From: Actinobacteria bacterium 21-64-8
GTDB lineage: Bacteria; Pseudomonadota; Alphaproteobacteria; Sphingomonadales; Sphingomonadaceae
Direction of reading: 5' to 3'
Assembly (NCBI GenBank): GCA_903970225.1
Contig: CAJCHR010000016.1
Coordinates: 1-43,737, forward strand
Length of the DNA: 43,737 bases
Each line of letters starts with the position of its first letter. The stretch's first letter is position 1. Position numbers and translations under genes: made by a program. Of this stretch, positions 6,595-22,211 are shown in pieces. Under the pieces are notes generated by a model, which worked only from the letters and a program-made list of their open reading frames with translations, was not told the DNA's origin and ran no database searches.

Positions 6595-7575
6595 CTAGAG
6601 CTCGGCCCCCCGACGCCATGCGCCCGGCGTCTGGCCGACCGCGCGCGAAAACACGCGTGTGAAGTGGGATTGATCGGAAAAACCGGTCTCCAGCGCGATC
6701 TCGGCGAGCGGTCGCCCAGTATCGAGCAACAGCTCCCGCGCGCGGCGAACCCGTGCATCCGTCAGCCACATGTGCGGCGGCTTGCCGGTCGAGACCTTGA
6801 ACGAACGATGGAAATGCGATGGTGAAAGCCGGACGAGATCGGCGCAGGCCTCGAGCGCGATCCGTTCACCCAAGTTCGCTTCCATGTACTCGGTGACGAA
6901 CCTGAGCAGGCGTGCTGTAAGGCCGCCTGAGAAGTGCGGGCGTGGCTCGACTTTCGGCGGGCTCGACAGGAGCGACAACAGGCTGATCGAGAGTGCCTGG
7001 CCCAGCAAAGGCTCGCTCGGATCCTCGTGATCGCATTCGGCCTCGAACAGCCGTGCCAGAGCAAGCAGACGGCGATCGGCGAACCCGATCCGGCAGATAT
7101 CAGGCAATCGGATAGCGGCCGGATCCCCAGCAACTTCGGCAAGGTCGGCCATCGAGAATTGCAACGTCAGATGGCGCAGCGATGAGATCGCTGGGGCATA
7201 GGACCAGGTCGGCGTGCCTGCAGGCAGGAAGTACATGCGGTTTGGCGCCTCACCCGTCGCGGCATTCCCGGGTCCGACCGAGCGCATCCGGAACCGCGCG
7301 CCGCTTTCTTCCAAGACGACGACCAGTCGATCGTAAGGCGCGGTGCTGTCGATTTCGACGGGACCTTCGGCGCGGATCTCCTGGACAACGGCGGACAGGC
7401 CCACCCAGGTCTTTTGACGCACCTTGTCGACCTTGATGCTTTGGTGCGAAGGCCTGAACGGCTTGCGCCAGGCACCGGCGTGGGGCGCGCCGCGACTCCT
7501 GCCGAATGCTTCGACCAAGCTGGCCGCGTCCTCAGCCTCGATATTGCCGGCTTTGTGGATCGGTGCGTGAAGCAT
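6595..7575 (-). CDS. AraC-family transcriptional regulator
   Basis: The 326-residue protein has an N-terminal cupin-like sensing half (residues about 60-170, including RMYFLPAGTPTWSYA) and a C-terminal double helix-turn-helix (about 225-322). The latter reads ERIALEACADLVRLSPSHFHRSFKVSTGKPPHMWLTDARVRRARELLLDTGRPLAEIALETGFSDQSHFTRVFSRAVGQTPGAWRR. This is a complete AraC/XylS DNA-binding domain. The gene is divergent from the TonB-dependent receptor at 7972, with about 396 nt between, and lies upstream of the NmrA-like gene on the same strand. Either may be its target. The ligand is unknown. Confidence 0.92.
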   Translation of the reverse strand: MLHAPIHKAGNIEAEDAASLVEAFGRSRGAPHAGAWRKPFRPSHQSIKVDKVRQKTWVGLSAVVQEIRAEGPVEIDSTAPYDRLVVVLEESGARFRMRSVGPGNAATGEAPNRMYFLPAGTPTWSYAPAISSLRHLTLQFSMADLAEVAGDPAAIRLPDICRIGFADRRLLALARLFEAECDHEDPSEPLLGQALSISLLSLLSSPPKVEPRPHFSGGLTARLLRFVTEYMEANLGERIALEACADLVRLSPSHFHRSFKVSTGKPPHMWLTDARVRRARELLLDTGRPLAEIALETGFSDQSHFTRVFSRAVGQTPGAWRRGAEL

Positions 7576-7971
7576 GGCGCATCTCCTGCAATTCCATCTC
7601 CAGCATCAGGCCGACCAACGATTCGCGCGAGTGAAGTTCCGTAAACTTCGTAGCGTTCGCGCCTCACGAAATTTAGGAGCGCTTTGCGAATTTGACCACA
7701 AGGTGCTGTGTGTCGGCGGCGTATTCACTGTTCGATGAGGTGTCCTGCCGGATGAGCGACAACGGCGGATGCCGAGGCGGCGCCCGTGGCAGCCGGTCAA
7801 CGGGGACGGGCGGGCATGCTGCGTGGGCGGATCGACTGGCATTTCGCGGCGAATGGCGCTTGCGCCACGCTGATTTGCCGGCCTGATCGGTCCGGTTCAC
7901 AACATTTACGAACCACAACGCGCCAGCGACCGCAGCTTCGGCCAGATCACGATCCAGGGTGGAGCTGTTCG
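7576..7971. other. Intergenic region between divergent araC-like and TonB-receptor genes
   Basis: No convincing gene lies here; the short open frames lack ribosome sites and recognisable domains. The stretch must carry the promoters of both divergent genes. It contains a 31-nt element at 7889-7919 (listed separately) and the ribosome site GGAG at 7961-7964 for the receptor. Confidence 0.6.
7889..7919 (-). promoter_or_regulatory. 31-nt element, copy A, upstream of TonB receptor
   Basis: Read on the minus strand it begins GTTGTGGTTCGTAAAT and continues GTTGTGAACCGGACC. It matches the element at 14653-14683 at 23 of 31 positions, the first 16 with a single mismatch. Both copies contain a direct repeat GTRAAY-N3-GTRAAY (two 6-nt units, 9 nt apart). 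This copy ends 52 nt before the receptor start codon. A shared regulator is inferred; no binding data exist in the sequence. Confidence 0.4.
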
Positions 7972-10254
7972 ATGAACTGGAGGATCCACGCGCGTAAAGT
8001 CGCTGCGTCAGCATTGCCGTGTGTCTTCGCGTCGCTCGCGGCAGGCTCGTCCTGGACAAACTCAGCCTACGCAGATGACGCCGCGACGCAGGCCGGTATC
8101 GTCGTCACAGCCACCAAACGCCCGACGCTCCTGTTGGACACCCCGATGAGCGTTACTGTCGTCGATACGAAGACGCTTGCCCAGACCCACGTTGATGAGT
8201 TCGCCGATATCGCGGCGCTGGTCCCGGGGTTGACCTACACGGACTCGGGACCGGGAAACAAACGCTACGCCTTGCGCGGGCTGCAATCGGCCGGCGAACC
8301 CGAGGTGGCATTGTACTATGACGAGGTGCCGGTGAGCGGGCTTCCGGGCGCTTCTCTCGACACCGGCGACAGCCAGCCCGATTTCAAGCTTGTGGACCTT
8401 CAGCGGGTCGAAGTCCTGCGCGGGCCGCAGGGCACGCTTTATGGCAACGGATCGATGGGCGGGGCGATCCGCATCATCTCGCACCGGCCCGACTTGCAGG
8501 GCATCTCAGGAGCTGCCGAAGGGTATGTGTCGGCGACAGATGGCGGCAATCCTTCTGGTGGTTTCGACGCGATGGCGAACATCCCGGTCGTGAAAGATCG
8601 CCTGGCGGTGCGGATCGTCGGCTACGTGCGCCGTGAAGGGGGCTGGATCGATGCGGTCGCCGATCCAGACATTGCGCTTCCGCAGCTGACCGATCGCAAC
8701 ACCAACTGGGAGCATACCGCCGGCGGGCGCGCTTCAGCGAGCTTTCAGGCGCTGCCCGGCTGGAACATCACTGGCATCGCCTATTATCAGCGGACCACCA
8801 CCGGTGCGGCTTCGGACATCTATCCCGCGTACGGAACTGCGTCCGACCCTTACGTGTCGAAGACCTATGTGCGCACGCCATGGCGCGAGCGCGCGCAGCT
8901 CTACAATCTGATCAGCACGACCGAGTTCGCGCACGCCACCCTGGTCGCGACCGGTTCGTACCAGCGCAGAGTACTAGACCGGACCACCGACACGACCCGC
9001 TTCCTGATCGGCCAGTTCGGCTGCACCGAACTCACCTGGGATCAGACGTGCCACGGGCCGCCGCTGGCGCCGGCGGCAGGCTACGCCCACGAAACAGTCA
9101 GCGCGTGGTCAGGAGAGGTCCGGCTCACGTCCAAAGACATCGGCCGGCTGGAATATACCGTCGGCGCGTTCCTGCAGCGCGCTACCACCACCCGCAAGAC
9201 GCAGGTCGCCTCGGTCGATGCCGGCGGAAACGTGGCGCACGATCCGGCCACAGGCACGACGCTCGGCCGGCTGTTCGAGCGGGACAACGTCGACACGTTC
9301 GACCAATACGCGCTATTCGGTGAAGCATCGTATCGGATCGTGCCGCGGATCAAGGCGACCGCCGGACTGCGCTACTTCAACTCCGATCGAACCGACCAGC
9401 AGGTTATCGTCCAGCAGTTCTTTCCTGGGCAACCCACCGGGCCCCAGCCTTTCCAGCAGTTTCGTCAGGGCAAGCTCTTCCAGAAATACCAGCTCTCCTA
9501 CTCCATCCCTTCCGAAGGTCTGATCTATCTGCAGGCCGCGCAGGGCTTCCGCTCCGGCGGACCCAATTTTCCCGGAGGCTTCGCGATCTCTGCCCCGCCT
9601 TACGGCGCGGATTCGGTCTGGGATTACGAATTCGGCGCGAAGTTCGACCTGGCGGACGGGAAGCTGCACGTCTCCGGCGCCGTGTTCCACATCGTCTGGA
9701 GCAACCTGCAGCAACTCGTGCCCACCGCGCTGTTCAGCTACATCGCCAACGCCGGTAGGGCGCAATCGGACGGCTTCGAGACCGAAGTGGCGTTTACGCC
9801 AAACGGGGCCTGGTCGGTCTCCGGCGGCGTGACCTACAACGACGCGCGTCTCGTTGGACCGCAGCCGGCCCAGATCGACCCCGCGCTGCAACTGCAAGCC
9901 GGCGACAAGCTCGCCAACGTGCCTGACTGGACCGCGCGCGGCAGCCTGGCATACGACTTCGCGCTTCCCGCAGGCTTCAAGGCGCTGGCCCGGCTTGACG
10001 GCGTGTACCAGTCTGGACGGGGTGACATCGTCTCCTTGCGCAACCCGGCCTTTTTCCGGATCGGCTCCTCCGCGCTCGCCAACCTGCACATCGAGCTCAC
10101 CCCGCCGCGGACGTGGTCGATCGGGCTCGACGTCGACAACCTGTTCGACAGCTTCGCGCCACAGTCAGCCAAGGCGCTCGATTCCAACCTGGTGATGACC
10201 GAAGCCGCTGCGCGCCCGCGCACGATCACCTTGCGGCTCGCCGCGGCCTTCTGA
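7972..10254 (+). CDS. TonB-dependent outer-membrane receptor
   Basis: This 760-residue receptor has a signal peptide ending near SAYA-DDA (about residue 35). A TonB-box-like strand follows (GIVVTATKRP), then the plug domain (about 50-165, with PMSVTVVDTKTL, YALRGLQSAGEPEVALYYDEVPV, LQRVEVLRGPQGTLYGNGSMGGAIRII), and a 22-strand-type barrel ending in AAF. Such proteins import siderophores, vitamins or oligosaccharides and, in sphingomonads, aromatic compounds across the outer membrane using TonB/ExbBD. ATG 7972 has GGAG at 7961-7964, and the open frame upstream lacks a signal peptide. It is divergent from AraC and meets the STAND regulator tail to tail. The substrate is not evident; the long barrel without a TPR or secretin domain does not specify it. 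Confidence 0.93.
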   Translation: MNWRIHARKVAASALPCVFASLAAGSSWTNSAYADDAATQAGIVVTATKRPTLLLDTPMSVTVVDTKTLAQTHVDEFADIAALVPGLTYTDSGPGNKRYALRGLQSAGEPEVALYYDEVPVSGLPGASLDTGDSQPDFKLVDLQRVEVLRGPQGTLYGNGSMGGAIRIISHRPDLQGISGAAEGYVSATDGGNPSGGFDAMANIPVVKDRLAVRIVGYVRREGGWIDAVADPDIALPQLTDRNTNWEHTAGGRASASFQALPGWNITGIAYYQRTTTGAASDIYPAYGTASDPYVSKTYVRTPWRERAQLYNLISTTEFAHATLVATGSYQRRVLDRTTDTTRFLIGQFGCTELTWDQTCHGPPLAPAAGYAHETVSAWSGEVRLTSKDIGRLEYTVGAFLQRATTTRKTQVASVDAGGNVAHDPATGTTLGRLFERDNVDTFDQYALFGEASYRIVPRIKATAGLRYFNSDRTDQQVIVQQFFPGQPTGPQPFQQFRQGKLFQKYQLSYSIPSEGLIYLQAAQGFRSGGPNFPGGFAISAPPYGADSVWDYEFGAKFDLADGKLHVSGAVFHIVWSNLQQLVPTALFSYIANAGRAQSDGFETEVAFTPNGAWSVSGGVTYNDARLVGPQPAQIDPALQLQAGDKLANVPDWTARGSLAYDFALPAGFKALARLDGVYQSGRGDIVSLRNPAFFRIGSSALANLHIELTPPRTWSIGLDVDNLFDSFAPQSAKALDSNLVMTEAAARPRTITLRLAAAF

Positions 10255-13131
10255 TCAGGATCGCCGCTGACCAGCGCGGCGTGCGGGGATCCGCGCAGGT
10301 GCCGCCTTGCGGGTGCCTTTGAGGTTGGCCAGCAAATGAGCGGCGATTTGCAGGTCCGCCGTCTCGAAGCCCTCGGTGAACTGGTCATAGACCGAGCCCA
10401 GCAGTTTGTGCGCCTCGAGCCTGCGACCTTCCCTTGCCCACTGACGGGCGAGGCTCGTCGCGGCGCGCAGCTCCCAAGAGAGCGCTCCCTGCGCCTGCGC
10501 CTCGGCGATCGCGCTCTCGAACAGGCGCGAAGCCTGCTCGGTCTTGCTTGGATCGCTCGCAAGCAGCCCTTCGCCCGCGACGCGCAGCATCTCGGGATTG
10601 CTCCATCCGCACTGATGCTCCTGCGCGCGAGCGGCGAGGTCCGGCGTCATGAAATGACTGTCGATCGTCACCAGCAATTCGAGATGCATCGGACTTATCG
10701 TCCGCACCGCGGCGTTGCTGCGATAGGCGAAGCCGGTGCTCTCCTCGCCATCGCGGCGGGCAAGGATATCAGCGAAACCCTCACCCATCACGAACCACCG
10801 GTCGAGCGTGTAACGCCTGCCAGCCTCGAGCAGATCGGCCGTGTAGCCGCGCGCGGCGGGCAGGTTGCCGGTCCAGAACGCGATCGGGCACGCGGCAACA
10901 GCCAGCGCGAAGCAGATCGAGAACGGTCCATCTTCGTGCGCCATGCTCACCGCTTCGTCCATCAGTGCGACGGCCTGGATCGGCTTGCCGCGCAGCCAGA
11001 GGATTCGGGCGTGAAGCATGCGCATAGAGACGCGGCGGTTGATCGGGGCGTTCGCATAGCTCAGCGGGATCGCCCGCGCAGGATGGCGCATGACACGATC
11101 GGCGAGGTGCCAAGCGCGCTCGTGGTCGCCCGCCCAGTGGAGCGCCTGCGCTTCGACCCGCTCTGCCAGCAACACCGCCAGCGGATCCTCGGCCTCGCGC
11201 GCGTTCTGGCTCATCAGCGCCGCAATCCGCATCGATCCCACGTTGTCGCCCTGCTCGATCCGGTAGATTGCGCGCGATTGCAGCAATTCGATCTTGTGCT
11301 TGGGATGCGGCATGCGGTCGGTGAGGGCTTCGGCCTGGTCGAACAGCGCATCGGTGCTTGCGCGGTCCATCGAGCAGTTGAGATGGAGCACCGTGCGCAC
11401 CGCGCTCAGGCGTAGCTCTGCGAGCAGGTTCGGCGGGTCCAGCGTGCGCAGCAACTCGAGCGCGAGCCCGGCGCGGCGGTTGAATTCGTCGATCAGGCAG
11501 AGCTGGAATCCGAACGGCAGCGACGCGATGGTCAGCGCCGCGCCGATCTCGACGTCGCCATCGGGTCCGAACGCCCATTCGAGCGCCGCACGGATATCGT
11601 CGATCGTGTAGCCGAACTCCTCGACCCATTCGGCGCGGCTCAGCGTATCCCAGCGCGCCTCCGCGGCTGCCATCAGATCGCGGTGGTGCTGCGCATGCCG
11701 TCGGGCGAGACTGGCGTCCTGGCCGGTCGCGGCGGCCTTCTCCCGGGCATAGGCCCCCGTGACCCGCAGCAGCCTGTAGAGCATCGCTGGTCCGCTCGGA
11801 TCAGTCGCGACGAGCGACTTCGCGGTCAGCGAGGCGACCGCATCGAGCACTTGCTCCACCGCGACGCCTTGCCCCGACGCGACCGCGGCCGCCGACTCGA
11901 GCGTGAACGAGCCGCGGAAGATCGAGAAGCGCTCGAGCACCCGCTTCTCGACCTCCGAAAGGAGTTCATAAGACCAGTCCAGCGCGCCCATGATCGACTG
12001 CTGGCGCGTTTGCACCGAGCGGCTGCGCCGTGCGATCAGCATCATCCGGTCGTTGAGAGCGGTGGCCAGGCCCCGGAGGCCGAACAGGTCTACCCGGGCC
12101 GCGGCCAGTTCGATTGCGAGCGGCAGACCATCGAGACGCCGGCAGATCTCGACGACGGATGCCGCCTCCACCTCGCCGAATGTGATCGTTTCCGAGCTGT
12201 TCATGGCGCGCTCCATGAACAGCTGCACGGCGGGATAAGTCATCGCTTCGGACGGCGTCAGCTCCAGCCCTTCCTCGGGCATGTCGAGCGGACCAAGCCG
12301 GAACACCCACTCGTCTTGCGCCAGCAGCGGTTCGCGACTGGTCGTCAGGAAGCGCACCTGTTCGGATGCGAACAAGATCGTCTCAACCAAAGCGGCCACC
12401 GCGCTGACGACGTGCTCGCAATTGTCGAGGACGATCAGAACCTGCCGGTCGCTCAGGAACGCGCTGAGGCTGCCGAGCGGATCACCGGTCGTGACGGATA
12501 CGCCGAGTGCGGTCGCGACAGCAGCCGGAACCAGTTCGGCCCCTTCGATGGCGGATAGCTCGACGAAGTAGACCCCATCGGAGCCGAGCGCGCCGCACTG
12601 TTCGCTCATCGCCAACGCGACGGTACTCTTGCCCACGCCTGCGGGTCCGACAACGCTGACCAGCCGGCGCGCCTGCAGCTTGACCAGCAGGCCTTCGACG
12701 ACGACGTCGCGCCCGACGATGCGGCTGAGTCCCTTGGAGAGAAACGCATTGCTGCGGCCTTCCCGCGGCGGGTCGATGCGGGTCACGGTGACCGAGCGCT
12801 CGACCGGGAGGCTGAACAGATAGCCGTGGCCGGAGACGTTGACGATGTAGTGCGCGCCGCCCTGGCCATCCCCCAGGACCTTGCGGATGGCCGCGATATG
12901 GACACGAAGGTTGGTCTCATCGACCATCGCATGAGGCCAGACGAGGCTCAGCAGCTCGCGTTTGGTCACCACTTCGCCTGCGCGCTCAACGAGCGCGATC
13001 AGCAATTCCATTGCCCGGCCACCGAGACGGACCTGCCGCCCATTCTCGATCAGGATCCGCCGCGAAGGGAACAGCTGGAACGGCCCGAAGACGAGCGCGT
13101 CACCATCTGTCCTTGCGCCGGCTTCCGACAC
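10255..13131 (-). CDS. OmpR-type winged-helix / STAND ATPase transcriptional regulator
   Basis: This large regulator (958 residues) has three parts. Residues about 12-108 form an OmpR/PhoB-type winged helix (LLIALVERAGEVVTKRELLSLVWPH...IAAIRKVLGD...IVNVSGHGYLF). Residues about 135-430 form a STAND/NB-ARC-like ATPase with Walker A GPAGVGKST (162-170) and Walker B VLIVLDNCEH (231-240), plus a GLPLAIELAAARV block. The remainder is a helical TPR-like repeat region to the C-terminus. The family acts as inducer-activated switch proteins related to AfsR/MalT-type activators. The GTG start at 13131 is preceded by GGGGGA. Its stop meets the receptor stop with no gap (TGATCA). It is upstream-adjacent to the MFS gene, so it may govern the transport block. 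Targets are inferred only. Confidence 0.9.
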   Translation of the reverse strand: MSEAGARTDGDALVFGPFQLFPSRRILIENGRQVRLGGRAMELLIALVERAGEVVTKRELLSLVWPHAMVDETNLRVHIAAIRKVLGDGQGGAHYIVNVSGHGYLFSLPVERSVTVTRIDPPREGRSNAFLSKGLSRIVGRDVVVEGLLVKLQARRLVSVVGPAGVGKSTVALAMSEQCGALGSDGVYFVELSAIEGAELVPAAVATALGVSVTTGDPLGSLSAFLSDRQVLIVLDNCEHVVSAVAALVETILFASEQVRFLTTSREPLLAQDEWVFRLGPLDMPEEGLELTPSEAMTYPAVQLFMERAMNSSETITFGEVEAASVVEICRRLDGLPLAIELAAARVDLFGLRGLATALNDRMMLIARRSRSVQTRQQSIMGALDWSYELLSEVEKRVLERFSIFRGSFTLESAAAVASGQGVAVEQVLDAVASLTAKSLVATDPSGPAMLYRLLRVTGAYAREKAAATGQDASLARRHAQHHRDLMAAAEARWDTLSRAEWVEEFGYTIDDIRAALEWAFGPDGDVEIGAALTIASLPFGFQLCLIDEFNRRAGLALELLRTLDPPNLLAELRLSAVRTVLHLNCSMDRASTDALFDQAEALTDRMPHPKHKIELLQSRAIYRIEQGDNVGSMRIAALMSQNAREAEDPLAVLLAERVEAQALHWAGDHERAWHLADRVMRHPARAIPLSYANAPINRRVSMRMLHARILWLRGKPIQAVALMDEAVSMAHEDGPFSICFALAVAACPIAFWTGNLPAARGYTADLLEAGRRYTLDRWFVMGEGFADILARRDGEESTGFAYRSNAAVRTISPMHLELLVTIDSHFMTPDLAARAQEHQCGWSNPEMLRVAGEGLLASDPSKTEQASRLFESAIAEAQAQGALSWELRAATSLARQWAREGRRLEAHKLLGSVYDQFTEGFETADLQIAAHLLANLKGTRKAAPARIPARRAGQRRS

Positions 13132-13262
13132 TGCTTTCCCCCGAGCAGCTGACGCTGCCTTCGAATACGACCGTCTTACTTATCCTTAACCCGAATATGC
13201 GGTGGGAGGGAAACCGAATTTCGAACCGGGCGGAGCAAAATCTCGGTCGCGGCACGGCACGG

Positions 13263-14573
13263 TCACGCCTTCGGTGCGAGGCGGCTCTGCGATGCCATCA
13301 GTGCGATGGCGCAGATAAGCGTCAGCGCGATGACCGCCATGACCCACGGCTCGCGCCCGGCCTGCACCAGCGGCAGCAGGATCAGCGGTGCGGCAGCGGC
13401 GCCGATGCGGTTGAACGACCAGGCGAGGGTCACCGCCTTCGAGCGGCCGGCGGCGGGGAATTGCTCTGCGCCGTAGACCATCATCGTCGGGATCGTGAGC
13501 GACGTGAACAGACCGTAGCCCACGAGCGCGACAGCAAGGCCGAGCGAAACCGAGCTCGACGCGAACAGCCCCAGCAGCAGGAGCATTCCGCCATTGTACG
13601 CGATGAGAGCGAGCCGGCGATCGATGCGATCGATGAGGAGCGCGCTCAGCAGTGTCCCGATCGGAGGCCCACACGAAGCCAAGGCGATGTAGAGCAGCGC
13701 TCCGGATAGATCAAAGCCGCGCGTGATAAGGATCGGGCCGGTTACCAGCGGAAACGATACGGTGGCCCAAGGGGTCAGGAAGAACAACAGCGAGACCACC
13801 GCGAACCGCCATCGAAAGGAAGGCTCCGCGTGTAGCCACCGATCTTTGCGTTCGACCGGGGCTGCCGGTTGCGTTCGGAACAATTCCGGCGATCGTTCGA
13901 AGCGGCGCCTGACCGCGTGCGCCTCGGACGGACGGCCACGTGACGCCAGCCAGCGCGGCGCCTCGGGGAGCCACAGGAAGCCGAGCGCGGTCATGGTTGC
14001 CACTATGGATCCCCCCACGAACGCCCATTGCCAACCATCCAGGCCCATCGGCTTTGCGAAGGATAGTGCCCGCACCGCCCAGATCACCGCGGGCGGGGCA
14101 AGCCCTGCCACTGCGCAGACCAGCGTGACGAGCGAGGATTGGCGCCCGAGCGGCGCGATATTGGTGAGGTATGCGACCATGAGCGGCAGGTACGCGCCCA
14201 GCGCCACTCCCGATGCCAGACGCACCAGCGCCAGAAGCTCGGGGGTCCGGCTGAAGCCTGCGAGCAGCGACGTCGCTCCAAGCAGCGCCGTCGCCGCGCT
14301 CAGCGCTCGCGATGGACCCATTCGATCCGCGACGATGCCCATCACCGGCGTCCCGAAAATCGCGCCGACATACACCGAGCCGACCAGCCACCCAAGCTGA
14401 CCGTGCGACAGATTGTGCGGGGGCGCGGCGAAGACCGCCGACAGCACCCCGCCCATTGCCAGTTCGCTCAGATCGATTGCAAGGCCCAGTGCGCAAATGA
14501 GGCCAATCACAAGGTGCAGCCGCCTTGGCGCGGCGCACGTCTCCCCGGGTTCGCTGGCTTCGATCAAAGACAT
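13263..14573 (-). CDS. MFS transporter (aromatic acid/sugar-type, 12 TM)
   Basis: This complete 436-residue major facilitator has a short cytoplasmic N-terminus followed by twelve hydrophobic segments. Motif A-like GIVADRMGPSRALSAAT occurs between helices 2 and 3 and LLIDRIDRRLALIAY between 8 and 9. The loop after helix 6 carries WLPEAPRWLASRGR, characteristic of the sugar/aromatic-acid:H+ symporter group (AAHS-like). It probably imports an organic acid into the cytoplasm, but the ligand cannot be fixed. ATG 14573 has GGAAAG upstream. The gene lies 131 nt downstream of the start of the STAND regulator, on the same strand, and is divergent from the EthD-like gene. A 31-nt element in its promoter region is shared with the TonB receptor. 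Confidence 0.9.
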   Translation of the reverse strand: MSLIEASEPGETCAAPRRLHLVIGLICALGLAIDLSELAMGGVLSAVFAAPPHNLSHGQLGWLVGSVYVGAIFGTPVMGIVADRMGPSRALSAATALLGATSLLAGFSRTPELLALVRLASGVALGAYLPLMVAYLTNIAPLGRQSSLVTLVCAVAGLAPPAVIWAVRALSFAKPMGLDGWQWAFVGGSIVATMTALGFLWLPEAPRWLASRGRPSEAHAVRRRFERSPELFRTQPAAPVERKDRWLHAEPSFRWRFAVVSLLFFLTPWATVSFPLVTGPILITRGFDLSGALLYIALASCGPPIGTLLSALLIDRIDRRLALIAYNGGMLLLLGLFASSSVSLGLAVALVGYGLFTSLTIPTMMVYGAEQFPAAGRSKAVTLAWSFNRIGAAAAPLILLPLVQAGREPWVMAVIALTLICAIALMASQSRLAPKA

Positions 14574-14652
14574 CGCTTTCCCGCGTGGCGGAGCGCGGCT
14601 CGTGGCCCCACCCTGGCGTACACTTGCTCGGACTGCTTGCCTGCATGGTCCG

Positions 14653-14683
14653 GGCGCGATTTACGGGATTTACAAACCACAAC
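14653..14683 (-). promoter_or_regulatory. 31-nt element, copy B, between MFS and EthD-like genes
   Basis: On the minus strand it begins GTTGTGGTTTGTAAAT and continues CCCGTAAATCGCGCC, with the 7-nt direct repeat GTAAATC. It matches copy A (7889-7919) at 23 of 31 positions. It starts 79 nt upstream of the MFS start codon and lies about 147 nt before the EthD-like start, so it could serve either. A role as activator or repressor site is inferred. Confidence 0.4.
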
Positions 14684-14830
14684 CCTCGCTGAGCCCCAAC
14701 CATCCGACACTCAAAATGGGCAGATCATTCAAACGGCATAGGAACCACCAAGCCAGCGTGCGTGCCATGAACCAGGAAGAACCGTGGTGCGATCGATCCG
14801 CGCCGCTGGGATGACAATCGGGAACACGTC

Positions 14831-15730
14831 GTGAGCACGTCTATCGAAACGCCCGATTACGGGGAACGCGACAAGCGAATCGCGTGCCAGACGTACTCCG
14901 CCATCCGGCGCATCGAGCACCTCGATCCCGAACTGTTCGGGCATTACTGGCGAGACGTGCATGGCCCGCTCTGTGCGCGTCTGCCTGCGCTCGGCTTCTA
15001 CGTGCAGCATCACTTCGCGCGCCTTCACCCGGCCAACCTGTGGCCGCTCGCGGAAGACGTGAAACCGATGGGCGTCGTGCTGGACGGTGCAGTCGAAATC
15101 GGTTTTGCCGGCGCCCAGGACCAGGCCGCATTCGCCGCCGCCAGCCCAATCCTGTTCGGCGACGAGATCAACCTATTCGCGCACGACCTCGCCTATAACC
15201 TGCCGAGAGGCTCGAAGACGTACGTCGACCGGCAGGCCGATGGCGCGCCCAACGGCCCCGACAAGCTTCACCGGCTCCATCTCCACTTCAGCGGCGACAC
15301 CGACAATGGTCTTACCAAATGGGCCCAGGGCATGGCCGAGCATCTCGCCTCGGCCGAAGCCGTGCACAAACTTCGGCTCCACTTGCCCGAGCCTTACGAC
15401 AACGACCGCCCATCCCCGCCTTCGCCGGGCGTTGATCACCATGCCGAGGACAAGCGCATCCGGGTGGCCGTGTTCGAGATCGGCTTCGAGACCGCCCTCG
15501 CCGCGCGCCGCTATTTTGATACCGATCATTTCAGGGCTACGCTGGACGGACAAGCCGTCCACGTCCAGCACCTCGGCGCCTTCCTTGTCTCCGGCGTCTA
15601 TACTTTCGTGCGCGACGGGCGCCCGACGCTGGCGGGGCTGCGCGGCAGCCGGCAGGCGGAGATCATCGAACGCATGGGCGCGCTGACCCAGACCGAACCC
15701 GAGGTCTCGCGCCTGTTCGTACCGTCCTGA
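14831..15730 (+). CDS. EthD-like domain protein
   Basis: This soluble 299-residue protein has an N-terminal half reading IRRIEHLDPELFGHYWRDVHGPLCARLPALGFYVQHHF. That pattern, an F-x-x-Y/H-W-x-x-V/T-H-G-P-L block, defines EthD-like dimeric alpha+beta barrel proteins. The second half (RVAVFEIGFETALAARRYFDTDHFRATLDGQAVHVQHLGAF) may be a degenerate second barrel repeat. EthD-type proteins accompany P450 or dehydrogenase degradation systems and can be dehydratases or accessory proteins; the reaction here is unknown. The GTG start at 14831 has GGGA about 8 nt upstream, while an upstream ATG at 14812 is out of frame and stops at once. It is divergent from the MFS gene and convergent with the S41 peptidase. 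Confidence 0.72.
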   Translation: MSTSIETPDYGERDKRIACQTYSAIRRIEHLDPELFGHYWRDVHGPLCARLPALGFYVQHHFARLHPANLWPLAEDVKPMGVVLDGAVEIGFAGAQDQAAFAAASPILFGDEINLFAHDLAYNLPRGSKTYVDRQADGAPNGPDKLHRLHLHFSGDTDNGLTKWAQGMAEHLASAEAVHKLRLHLPEPYDNDRPSPPSPGVDHHAEDKRIRVAVFEIGFETALAARRYFDTDHFRATLDGQAVHVQHLGAFLVSGVYTFVRDGRPTLAGLRGSRQAEIIERMGALTQTEPEVSRLFVPS

Positions 15731-15740
15731 AGCCGTTCGA

Positions 15741-17201
15741 TCATTGCGGGCGGAAATTCTTGATGCCGTCTGCAGGCAAGACGGTTTGAACGATCCAACT
15801 CCTAATCGCGCTGGTGTCGGTAATGTCGCCGTTGAACATGATGTCGGGCCTGACGGGGGCATTGTCACCTCTGTCGCGGCCATCGCGGGTCATGACAGGT
15901 ACGCTCAGCGTTGCATTTCCGCTTGGAAGCGGCGTCGATATTGGCGTGCCCGTGCGGCTGTCCACGAAGGTCTCGAGCCCGATAAGGCGCACGCCTGGCA
16001 TCAGCCTCATCTCGTCTGCGAAGGCGATGCAGGAGCTGGCGCAACCGTAGTCGGTAAGGACATATACCTTGCCAGTGACCGGGTTGGCGGGCGGCTTGGG
16101 AGATCTTCGAGGTGGTTGATGATGGGGTACGCGATAGACCGGACGGCCAGCAGCGATCGCCTTCGCTATGCCTTCGGACACCCGGGTGTCCTCATTGATC
16201 CGATCGGCGGCGGTGTCGGGAGGCATGCCGATGTCATTGCCACCCCCCGGGGAGCTTAAATACGTCGAAATCTCGGGCGTCGCGCGAAAGACAGGGAAAA
16301 TGGCTAGCCGCGCCCTCGCATAATACGCGGTGTATTCATCGCCATAGAGTGCACGAAGAAAAGCCATGAACCAGTTGTAGGGGCCGCCAGGGTTTCCCCT
16401 GACATCGATAACGATGACGCGCTTATCTCTAAGGTCTGCCGCCTTCGCGATGGTCGCGCGGAATTGATCGGCTTCGGATGTACCGAATGTTTGGAAGATC
16501 CCCACCCGCACCCACGCGCCGTCAGGTCCAAACGGGGTGATACTGGTCTCTCGCTGGGTCGTCCGACCCAGGGCCGCAGCAATCGGAAGCAGGCGGGTTG
16601 CCGGTGCGGGCCGCCAATCGAGCGAGACACTTCGGCCGCCGATCGTGCAGCGAACGGGTCGGGCCAGAAATGGGTTCCGCTCGACCAAGAAGAGCGCCCG
16701 TGCGGCCGACGCTTTGGTCGAATCAAGGCCCCAGTGGCCCCCCGAGTAGAGCGCGCCCTGATGGACCCACACTTCGGTCGGGTTGCCATCGCAGCCCGTC
16801 ACTTCCTCTCCGTTCGTCACTTGGCCATCGTTCGAGGCCGCTGCGACAGCGTAACGTCCGCCGCGATAAGCCAGCAGGAAGCCCGGCCACGTGAGGTCGG
16901 CCGGCAAGAGGTTAAACCTCAAATGCACGTGCTCGTCGTCAATGCTGTTGACGAAACGAGAGAGCGCCGCCTTGTAGCCGGCGAAGTCCTTGATCCGGGC
17001 TATTTGATCCTCAGCAGTGGCACGGGCTTGGTCCAGCCGCTCGATAGCCTGCTTGGGCGCAGGATAAACGATGCTGATATACTGGGCGCGGATATAGCCG
17101 TCCGTGAAGCGCAGATCCTGGATGGCAGTCTCCTGCCAGACGTTTTGGGCATACGCACGAGGCGCTAATACGAACAGCAGCCCAACAAGGAGCGCCTTCA
17201 T
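15741..17201 (-). CDS. Exported S41-family (tail-specific-like) peptidase
   Basis: The 486-residue protein starts with a signal peptide (MKALLVGLLFVLAPRAYAQ, cleavage near residue 18). The S41 fold is seen in GAWVRVGIFQTFGTSEADQFRATI (about 228-251), VIVIDVRGNPGGPYNWFM (about 262-279) and the nucleophile strand VYVLTDYGCASSCIAFADEM (about 379-398, Ser389 or Ser390). VRLIGLETFVDSRTGTPI follows. Family members cleave near C-termini or degrade peptides in the periplasm using a Ser/Lys dyad; this one has no obvious PDZ domain. ATG 17201 was chosen because the signal peptide begins there; the upstream frame overlaps the previous gene. It lies 29 nt downstream of the retropepsin-like gene and is probably co-transcribed. 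A processing partnership is inferred only. Confidence 0.87.
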   Translation of the reverse strand: MKALLVGLLFVLAPRAYAQNVWQETAIQDLRFTDGYIRAQYISIVYPAPKQAIERLDQARATAEDQIARIKDFAGYKAALSRFVNSIDDEHVHLRFNLLPADLTWPGFLLAYRGGRYAVAAASNDGQVTNGEEVTGCDGNPTEVWVHQGALYSGGHWGLDSTKASAARALFLVERNPFLARPVRCTIGGRSVSLDWRPAPATRLLPIAAALGRTTQRETSITPFGPDGAWVRVGIFQTFGTSEADQFRATIAKAADLRDKRVIVIDVRGNPGGPYNWFMAFLRALYGDEYTAYYARARLAIFPVFRATPEISTYLSSPGGGNDIGMPPDTAADRINEDTRVSEGIAKAIAAGRPVYRVPHHQPPRRSPKPPANPVTGKVYVLTDYGCASSCIAFADEMRLMPGVRLIGLETFVDSRTGTPISTPLPSGNATLSVPVMTRDGRDRGDNAPVRPDIMFNGDITDTSAIRSWIVQTVLPADGIKNFRPQ

Positions 17202-21120: not shown

Positions 21121-22211
21121 TCTTCACGATGGCCGGCCCGCGTCGGCTGCCGCGCCGGTCCGCGGCATCGGGCCGATGGGCTCTCCTGTCTGGTACGTCA
21201 GCCGCAATGCCGATGTCCGCACGGTCCTGTCTTGCCCGTTTGCCAGTTCGGACCCGTCACGCCCCGGCTTTCCCGAGCCCGAGGACCTCGACGATCGCAC
21301 GCCGTTCCTGATCGAGCTCGACGCGCCCCGCCATGCCGAGCTTCGCCGGCTGGTGCTGCCCGAGTTCGGCACCCGCTCGGTGCGCGCTCTCGAGCCGCTG
21401 CTGCAGGCCTCGGCCGATTGGCTGGTGGCGCGGATGCAGGTCGCCGGTCCGCAGGCCGATCTGGCAGATGCTTTCGCCAAGCCGATGGCATCGCTTGCGA
21501 TCTGCCACCTGCTGTCGGTGGCCCCGGCCGATGGTCCCTCTCTCACCTCCTGGGCCCGAGGTTCTAGGTGACGACAGCCGCGGACCGGAGGCACAGGGCG
21601 CCGCGCTCCAGGCGATCAACGGCTATATGGAAAGCCTGATCGACGAACGTATCGCCGATCCCGGTGACGATCTGTTCGGCCGGCTCGCGGCAGGGCCGTT
21701 GCGCGAGGGCAGGATCAGCCGCGCGGAGCTGGTTTCGCTCGCGATCATGCTGCTGATGGCCGGACACGACACCAATGCGAAGATGATCACGCTGGGCGTC
21801 GGCACGCTGCTGGACGAACCTGGGGCCGTCACAAGGATCGTGTCCGACGAGAGCGCGGCACACGCCGCCGTCGACGAACTGATCCGGCTGCATTCGATCG
21901 GGGACGACGACGGCTTCCGTGTCGCCACTGCCGACATCGCTGTTGGTGATGCGGTGATCCGCGCTGGCGAGGGCATCGTGCCGCTGGCCCGGCATGCCAA
22001 TCACGATCCGGCGATTTTCGAAGCGCCCGAGCGGTTCGACCTTGACCGCAACACCAACCTGCATGTCGGGTTCGGTTACGGACCGCACTTGTGCCTTGGC
22101 CGACCGCTCGCGCGGGCGGTGCAGGCGATCGCCTACAGAACGCTGTTCGCGGTGATCCCGACGTTGCGCCGCGTCGCGGACGAACCGCGGCTCATCGTGA
22201 CCGGTTGGTGA
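21113..22211 (+). pseudogene. Cytochrome P450, broken by a single-base frameshift
   Basis: The first frame, from ATG 21113 (GGAGG at 21100-21104), encodes about 150 residues of a bacterial P450 N-terminal half (ELDAPRHAELRRLVLPEFGTRSVRALE...) and ends at TGA near 21570. The rest continues in the next frame from about 21556: I-helix LLMAGHDTNAKM, K-helix ExxR as DELIRLHS, and haem-binding FGYGPHLCLGRPLAR with the Cys ligand. Removing one base in CGAGGTTC (about 21557-21564) joins WAR to VLGDDSRGPEAQG and restores about 365 residues. It could be a real inactivation or an indel error. The SDR overlaps its start. The intact enzyme would hydroxylate a small lipophilic substrate using external ferredoxin; none is encoded here. 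Confidence 0.85.

Follow-up and report, generated by a model that had tools for sequence, protein, structure and literature searches.

Two copies of a DNA element lie in two promoter regions on either side of a single regulator gene, and the question raised by this locus is which protein reads them. The locus is part of a stretch of 43,737 nucleotides from Actinobacteria bacterium 21-64-8 (the whole contig CAJCHR010000016.1 of the draft assembly GCA_903970225.1, placed by GTDB in the Sphingomonadaceae), which was analysed as a whole and is called the window in the following. The gene between the two copies, here named REG, codes for an OmpR-type winged helix joined to a STAND-type NTPase and is part of the gene order AraC(-), TonB receptor(+), REG(-), MFS(-), and EthD(+), and each copy therefore sits in a divergent gap. 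Both elements are quite probably operators of REG, as predicted from sequence comparison. The copies are rare in the genome and conserved in constant orientation in orthologous promoters, and their half-site is in excess at a period of 10 bp beside REG homologs.

The element in the window and in the genome

The two 31-nt copies (7889-7919 and 14653-14683) are identical at 23 of 31 positions, with a single difference within the first 16 positions on the minus strand, and both contain GTRAAY-N3-GTRAAY, as had been claimed in the first-pass annotation of this DNA. Their compact common core comprises 25 nt (Table 1). Copy 1 is located between the AraC and receptor genes and copy 2 between the MFS and EthD genes, also 147 bp before the GTG of EthD and antisense to it. 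The annotation had further placed the copies in promoter regions bracketing the regulator, which holds insofar as both occupy divergent gaps; neither, more precisely, lies immediately upstream of REG itself.

The 25-nt pattern GTTGTGGTTYGTAAATNNNGTRAAY is exact in both copies, which are its sole matches in the window at up to three mismatches, and 100 dinucleotide shuffles of the window gave no match at this tolerance. A genome search, proposed in the annotation, turned up few copies: the 16-mer GTTGTGGTTYGTAAAT at up to two mismatches occurs in the own genome (4,090,219 bases) at two places, which are both copies with 0 mismatches each, and the reversed 16-mer control likewise yielded two matches; the exact repeat GTRAAYN3GTRAAY occurs five times, twice in the window copies and three times inside open reading frames (ORFs) of a mechanical list. 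Since the 25-nt and 16-mer patterns were taken from the two copies themselves, these searches establish rarity and do not amount to an independent test. When the whole intergenic regions of both copies were aligned, the top local alignment was the element, with a score above 997 of 1000 shuffles (p 0.003). Among 397 family genomes, the exact element gave, beyond the window sites, seven matches at two to three mismatches versus three for the reversed control, indicating that it is locus-specific; the only two-mismatch match (L046, 5200-5224) falls within one mechanical ORF, 35 nt past the end of another.

Conservation in orthologous promoters

The receptor was found at E up to 1e-150 in three of 195 genus genomes, namely the own genome and two others of this genus (most likely Novosphingobium), G436 (locus L076) and G496 (locus L077). 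Each of these two also encodes a close REG, at 49% and 44% respectively, together with an MFS transporter at 45% identity. The MFS and receptor genes of both loci are divergent and share one gap, which holds GTTAATGTTGTGAAT at 17107 in L076 and GTGAATCTTGTTAAT at 8337 in L077, in both cases sense to MFS and antisense to the receptor, as in the window. There, REG separates MFS from the receptor, and each of the two has its own copy, oriented as in the orthologs. The comparison of orthologous promoters that the first-pass annotation had also proposed thus found the element kept in the same orientation, and with a held-out 24-mer position weight matrix (PWM) 0 of 1000 gap shuffles scored as high in either L076 or L077. 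In a leave-one-out scan, the sites of L076 and of L077 each ranked first of 39,972 positions. Exact GTNAAYN3GTNAAY occurs five times in 22 sources (the two window copies, L076, L077, and one place in L079), and GTDAAYNTTGTDAAY, a pattern drawn from the conserved sites themselves, is present once per genome in all three receptor genomes, always at the receptor gap, with 0, 2, and 3 matches of the reversed control. The element is also the top local alignment between the gap of copy 1 and that of L076 (p 0.001) and between those of L076 and L077 (p 0.002), and the best value among the other 18 gap pairs aligned was p 0.144.

A scan of genome contigs with the receptor alignment led to three loci, which are that of G436 again, L082 from a metagenome-assembled genome (MAG) of the Steroidobacteraceae with two REGs, and L083 from a Phenylobacterium MAG, which is cut by the contig end. 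The gap of L083 passed the held-out test (1 of 1000 shuffles as high) and its site ranked first of 9,778 positions. Among receptor homologs outside the module (n=7, 36-37%), no significant site was found by either the 24-mer PWM or a plasmid-trained one described below (p 0.06 to 0.99 with the latter), and a profile model of eight sites, run on three genomes at E up to 10, found nothing beyond the sites it was trained on, as expected by design. EthD was tried as an alternative anchor and rejected, as its homologs (48-52%) in six other of the 397 genomes and in the C455 paralog brought up no element in the stretches fetched.

The annotated direct repeat GTRAAY-N3-GTRAAY is present in both copies and is better read as part of three half-sites in steps of 10 and 9 bp. 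They take the form GTTGTG-N4-GTAAAT-N3-GTRAAY in the window, GATAAT-N4-GTTAAT-N3-GTGAAT in L076, GATAAT-N4-GTGAAT-N3-GTTAAT in L077, and GTTAAG-N4-GTAAAA-N3-GTTTAT in L078, the locus of a second REG of G436 (49%) away from the receptor and the MFS ortholog. Counted from the receptor starts chosen here, the sites are about 50-90 bp upstream.

The two window copies were probably produced by duplication, as suggested by their gap alignment, which runs to about 45 nt and thus past the repeat, and by the single shared gap of the orthologs. That the likeness is mainly one of descent, the divergent MFS-receptor gap having been duplicated when the genes became separated, and that it has no present function is nevertheless very improbable, because the repeat is retained in orthologs whose remaining promoter sequence has diverged and unrelated REG loci carry the same half-site at one period.

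A 10-bp period beside REG homologs

These unrelated loci are from plasmids and from sphingomonads. A search of 72,556 plasmid records gave REG relatives in 167 (E up to 1e-60), from which 26 loci were selected for species variety before their flanks were read (9 of 15 rows of this search and 17 of 60 spread rows); for unannotated records, the REG ends were estimated from the match. The flanks contain GTNAAN repeats in 10-bp steps, such as GTAAAT-CGTC-GTAAAG-CGGG-GTAAAG in L113, GTGAAT-CGTG-GTGAAT-TCTT-GTGACG in L087, and GTTGAGAGTTGTAAATCCATGTAAAT in L129 (Sinorhizobium fredii NGR234), which is close to copy 2 of the window. L129 and L130, both from Sinorhizobium, also share CTCAACTCGT in the gap after REG, just past the repeats toward the next gene, which may represent either another conserved box or promoter sequence common to orthologs.

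GTNAA pairs at period 10 amount to 12 sites in 9 of the 26 plasmid loci, compared with 6 sites for the other 14 periods between 6 and 20 together, and at this period neither the reversed motif nor the interior of the REG genes gave any site. The half-site was derived from the window and the 10-bp period from L085, L087, L113, and L115, which belong to this set, and the confirmatory counts are therefore those of the 17 plasmid loci fetched once the period had been noticed (5 sites in 5 loci at period 10 versus 4 sites at the other 14 periods) and of 25 sphingomonad REG loci (5 sites in 4 loci versus none at other periods, with one site of the reversed control), although 10 of the latter had been scanned earlier with the plasmid-trained PWM and the sites in L015 and L019 had thus already been seen. 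As some plasmid loci are mutual orthologs (L087/L118 and L129/L130), these loci are not independent. Control loci totalling 126 kb had one site at period 10 and four at period 9, counts which, chiefly that at period 9, may be inflated by five loci (L022 and L025-L028) fetched for a partial element match; L046, likewise fetched for such a match, does not belong to the PWM and period controls. When no half-site was preset, GTNAA at period 10 came first among gapped four-letter half-sites with at least two A/T (13 of 51 loci, the next having 7), and all patterns that equalled or exceeded this count (13-14) were composed solely of G and C. When the sequences upstream of 12 REG homologs were aligned, no block proved to be conserved, and a signal emerged only on testing the period.

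A PWM trained solely on 13 plasmid 16-mers places copy 2 second and copy 1 fourth of 87,444 positions in the window. The MFS-receptor site ranks first in L076, L077, and L082 (18 kb) and third in L083, and a site between the REG and AraC genes ranks first in L078. Tested gap by gap against shuffles, copy 2 is the best site in its gap (p 0.018), and the corresponding values are p 0.010 for L076, 0 of 1000 for both L077 and L078, p 0.002 for L082, and p 0.035 for L083. Of ten other REG loci outside the module, three (L015, L018, and L019) have a top score above 20, the site of L018 being about 5 kb from REG, and the top scores of six EthD control loci range from 10.5 to 17.3.

Chance similarity as the origin of the element is highly improbable in view of the genome-wide rarity, the held-out gap tests in other genomes, and the single-period excess, even though some control loci hold single sites that are equally high (25.3 with the 24-mer PWM in L041 and 17.3 with the 16-mer PWM in L045). 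The site in L041 (17838-17861), a locus fetched for its EthD homolog and with no known REG nearby, is itself probably due to chance.

Candidate binders of the element

The first-pass annotation had argued that direct repeats suit an OmpR-type winged helix such as that of the adjacent regulator, and this idea is independently supported because flanks of REG homologs, including plasmid loci of other orders, carry the same half-site at one specific period. The recognition helix V[DE]E[ST]NLRVHIAA[IL]RK is common to the window REG and those of L076, L077, and L078, and many distant REG homologs have VEDGSLRFHMAGLRK in its place. In the 20-kb locus L078, the two best 24-mer PWM sites both fall into the gap between REG and an AraC-type gene (0 and 4 of 1000 shuffles as high), and another site precedes the AraC ortholog of L077 (8 of 1000; p 0.062 with the plasmid PWM), which left both REG and AraC as candidate binders.

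According to the second of these options, the linked AraC regulator would read the element and control itself, the receptor, and MFS, with REG as a bystander or upstream input. This is unlikely on the present evidence, although in the window the AraC and receptor genes diverge, the AraC ortholog in L077 (41% over 288 amino acids) has the mentioned site upstream, and the L078 sites also border an AraC gene. The element is present in G436, whose best AraC match, however, spans just residues 128-323 at 39%, the likeness of the AraC protein beside its MFS being confined to the DNA-binding end, and L082 shows no AraC match at 1e-6. Moreover, the period-10 excess comes from loci selected for REG, few of the annotated ones listing an AraC-type gene (AraC in L133 and a GlxA type in L127).

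A factor from outside the module as reader, or the element being part of a core promoter, would agree with its position near gene starts. Either is very unlikely, as the element is not spread over genome or family, unlike the site of a global factor, its half-site is enriched beside REG homologs, and scans of both gaps for a sigma-70 consensus gave no match.

Several observations weigh against REG as the reader. AraC-type genes are also found near three orthologous or paralogous loci, and the own 131-bp upstream gap of REG (13132-13262) is without a site (560 of 1000 shuffles as high with the 24-mer PWM and p 0.488 with the plasmid-trained one). The exact GTNAA pair at period 10 is present in just 13 of the 51 REG loci, the contrast is weaker if one mismatch is allowed in the 17 later plasmid loci (16 sites in 8 loci at period 10 and 10 sites in 7 loci at period 11), and six of the seven REG loci lacking a strong site score within the control range of the plasmid-trained PWM. 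The second step of 9 bp has no counterpart in the flanks of the REG homologs, where period 9 gave 0 sites in the 26 plasmid and 25 sphingomonad loci. Under independent training, the values for the window gaps are modest: copy 1 is merely second in its own gap with the plasmid PWM (p 0.068), and a PWM from L076 and L077 alone leaves 50 and 71 of 1000 shuffles as high in the gap-level scores. The gap of L082 fails with the Novosphingobium 24-mer PWM (523 of 1000), and a profile model of four sites found in six genomes only these four training sites, missing those of L078, L083, and the AraC gene of L077.

A possible third site with the same 10+9 layout lies before the AraC gene of the window (Table 1). 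It ranks third of 87,444 positions with the plasmid-trained PWM, is the best in its gap (p 0.027), and is the sole window match of GTNAAN5GTNAAN4GT at up to one mismatch, yet 37 of 100 shuffles contain such a match too. This site is therefore not rare enough by itself for certainty; the regulon may extend to the AraC gene next to the receptor.

Genes and proteins of the module

The winged helix of REG was recognised as Trans_reg_C (Pfam, E 4.3e-16, residues 31-106), and its NTPase, which starts from about residue 135, as NB-ARC and AAA_22 just above the cut-offs; similar NTPase families were found in three relatives. Only about 30 residues separate the two domains. At an E threshold of 0.001, the Pfam hits of REG included no family of the BTA (bacterial transcriptional activation) domain, and the Pfam search gave neither a receiver domain nor a match to GerE (LuxR-type helix-turn-helix). 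An AlphaFold2 model of low overall confidence (mean pLDDT 62.5, the N-terminal domain being poorly modelled) shows residues 550-940 as largely all-helical at high confidence, and no TPR family scored above its cut-off. The MFS transporter is closest to the aromatic acid/H+ symporter family, far below the cut-off of that family.

Table 1. Positions of the element copies, the possible third site, and the genes of the module in the window.
Feature	Position	Strand	Description
Element copy 1	7895..7919	-	GTTGTG-N4-GTAAAT-N3-GTGAAC; 52 bp before TonB receptor ATG, antisense to receptor
Element copy 2	14659..14683	-	GTTGTG-N4-GTAAAT-N3-GTAAAT; 85 bp before MFS ATG, sense
Possible third site	7631..7655	+	GTGAAG-TTCC-GTAAAC-TTC-GTAGCG; 55 bp before AraC start, antisense to AraC; 10+9 layout
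REG, proposed binder	10255..13131	-	OmpR-type winged helix, STAND-type NTPase, and helical C-terminal half; Pfam, PDB sequence search
TonB-dependent receptor, proposed target	7972..10254	+	Pfam; listed ORF from 7786, ATG at 7972 chosen as start
MFS transporter, proposed target	13263..14573	-	Pfam
EthD-domain protein, possible target	14831..15730	+	Pfam
AraC-family regulator, possible target and rival binder	6595..7575	-	

Another short contig of the own genome (L039, G000:C455, 768-4140) contains relatives of the window genes for SDR (61%), u4304 (42%), and EthD (51%), indicating that the catabolic cluster has a paralog; the element was not found in this contig. At 21333-22211, the window has a P450-like ORF of 292 amino acids, which aligns with the Pfam model over the latter's second half only and may be partial or misbounded.

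REG relatives at E up to 1e-40 are encoded in 8 of 298 family genomes and in 15 of 149 genus genomes, the own one included, and some of these genomes have several copies; G496 and G499 have five matches each, and L082 contains its two REG-type genes in tandem (10159-15975). No TonB receptor or EthD gene was found near the family REG homologs of 31-36% identity (tblastn, 1e-8). As to other neighbours, a 3-hydroxyacyl-CoA dehydrogenase gene adjoins a gene weakly matching Ldl_recept_b near REG in L078 (14440-16386) and L077 (14572-16627), which may mark a pathway, and on plasmids REG homologs are located beside genes for a zinc alcohol dehydrogenase and a tautomerase (L087, L115, L118, and L124) or divergent from epoxide-hydrolase genes (L117, L120, and L121).

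Discussion

If REG reads the element, its OmpR-type winged helices would occupy, in head-to-tail arrangement, tandem GTNAAY half-sites spaced by roughly one helical turn, the first unit, GTTGTG, representing a degenerate one. The STAND NTPase would most likely oligomerise on a signal, presumably in a nucleotide-dependent manner, and the oligomer would place two or three winged helices side by side on the operator. Bound REG would then activate the genes for the TonB receptor and the MFS transporter, perhaps along with those for EthD and AraC, which together would form one local uptake and catabolic regulon. In this scheme, we infer REG as the binder, activation rather than repression, and control by oligomerisation.

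REG shares features with several known types of regulators. It has the winged-helix DNA-binding domain in common with OmpR/PhoB response regulators, whose receiver domain was not found in REG. MalT and the other LAL regulators resemble REG in the STAND NTPase with helical repeats, and the REG ortholog of L077 has a weak TPR_MalT match below the cut-off. MalT carries a C-terminal LuxR-type helix-turn-helix, whereas the winged helix of REG is N-terminal and a GerE match is absent. ToxR-like CadC is among the closest solved sequences (PDB) and, like REG, has an N-terminal OmpR-type winged helix without a receiver. CadC contains a membrane-spanning region and a sensor located in the periplasm, and its modelled sites are head-to-head (PMC5430869); REG has a STAND NTPase, and the sites reported here are head-to-tail.

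The large SARPs, such as AfsR of Streptomyces coelicolor, have the same kind of DNA-binding domain plus a STAND NTPase. They also use tandem direct repeats as operator, as proposed for REG, which their OmpR-type domains bind head-to-tail; the repeats of SARPs are 11 or 22 bp apart, compared with 10 bp in the REG family and 10 + 9 bp in the window (PMC10936776). REG differs in that no BTA domain was found and only the short interdomain stretch is available for one, while the BTA domain of AfsR spans residues 120-270 in the same account (PMC10936776). Large SARPs of the AfsR kind end in a TPR domain; for REG, the C-terminal half is predicted to be helical, with no TPR family above its cut-off.

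The literature examined, consisting of titles and beginnings of abstracts and mostly without subscription papers, gave no description of an operator or DNA target of a proteobacterial winged-helix/STAND regulator, and the family is apparently large and uncharacterised. On balance, GTNAAN tandem repeats with a 10-bp period, together with the three-unit 10+9 variant in Novosphingobium, may rather be than not be the family-wide operator of one-component regulators in which an OmpR winged helix is joined directly to a STAND NTPase and a helical solenoid. These regulators would control the uptake and catabolism of organic compounds and represent BTA-less proteobacterial counterparts of AfsR. The predicted operator would make the regulons of the REG family searchable and gives the family a testable DNA target. 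With such a defined DNA, it can be studied how an OmpR-type domain is controlled by a STAND switch without the activation domain of the SARPs.

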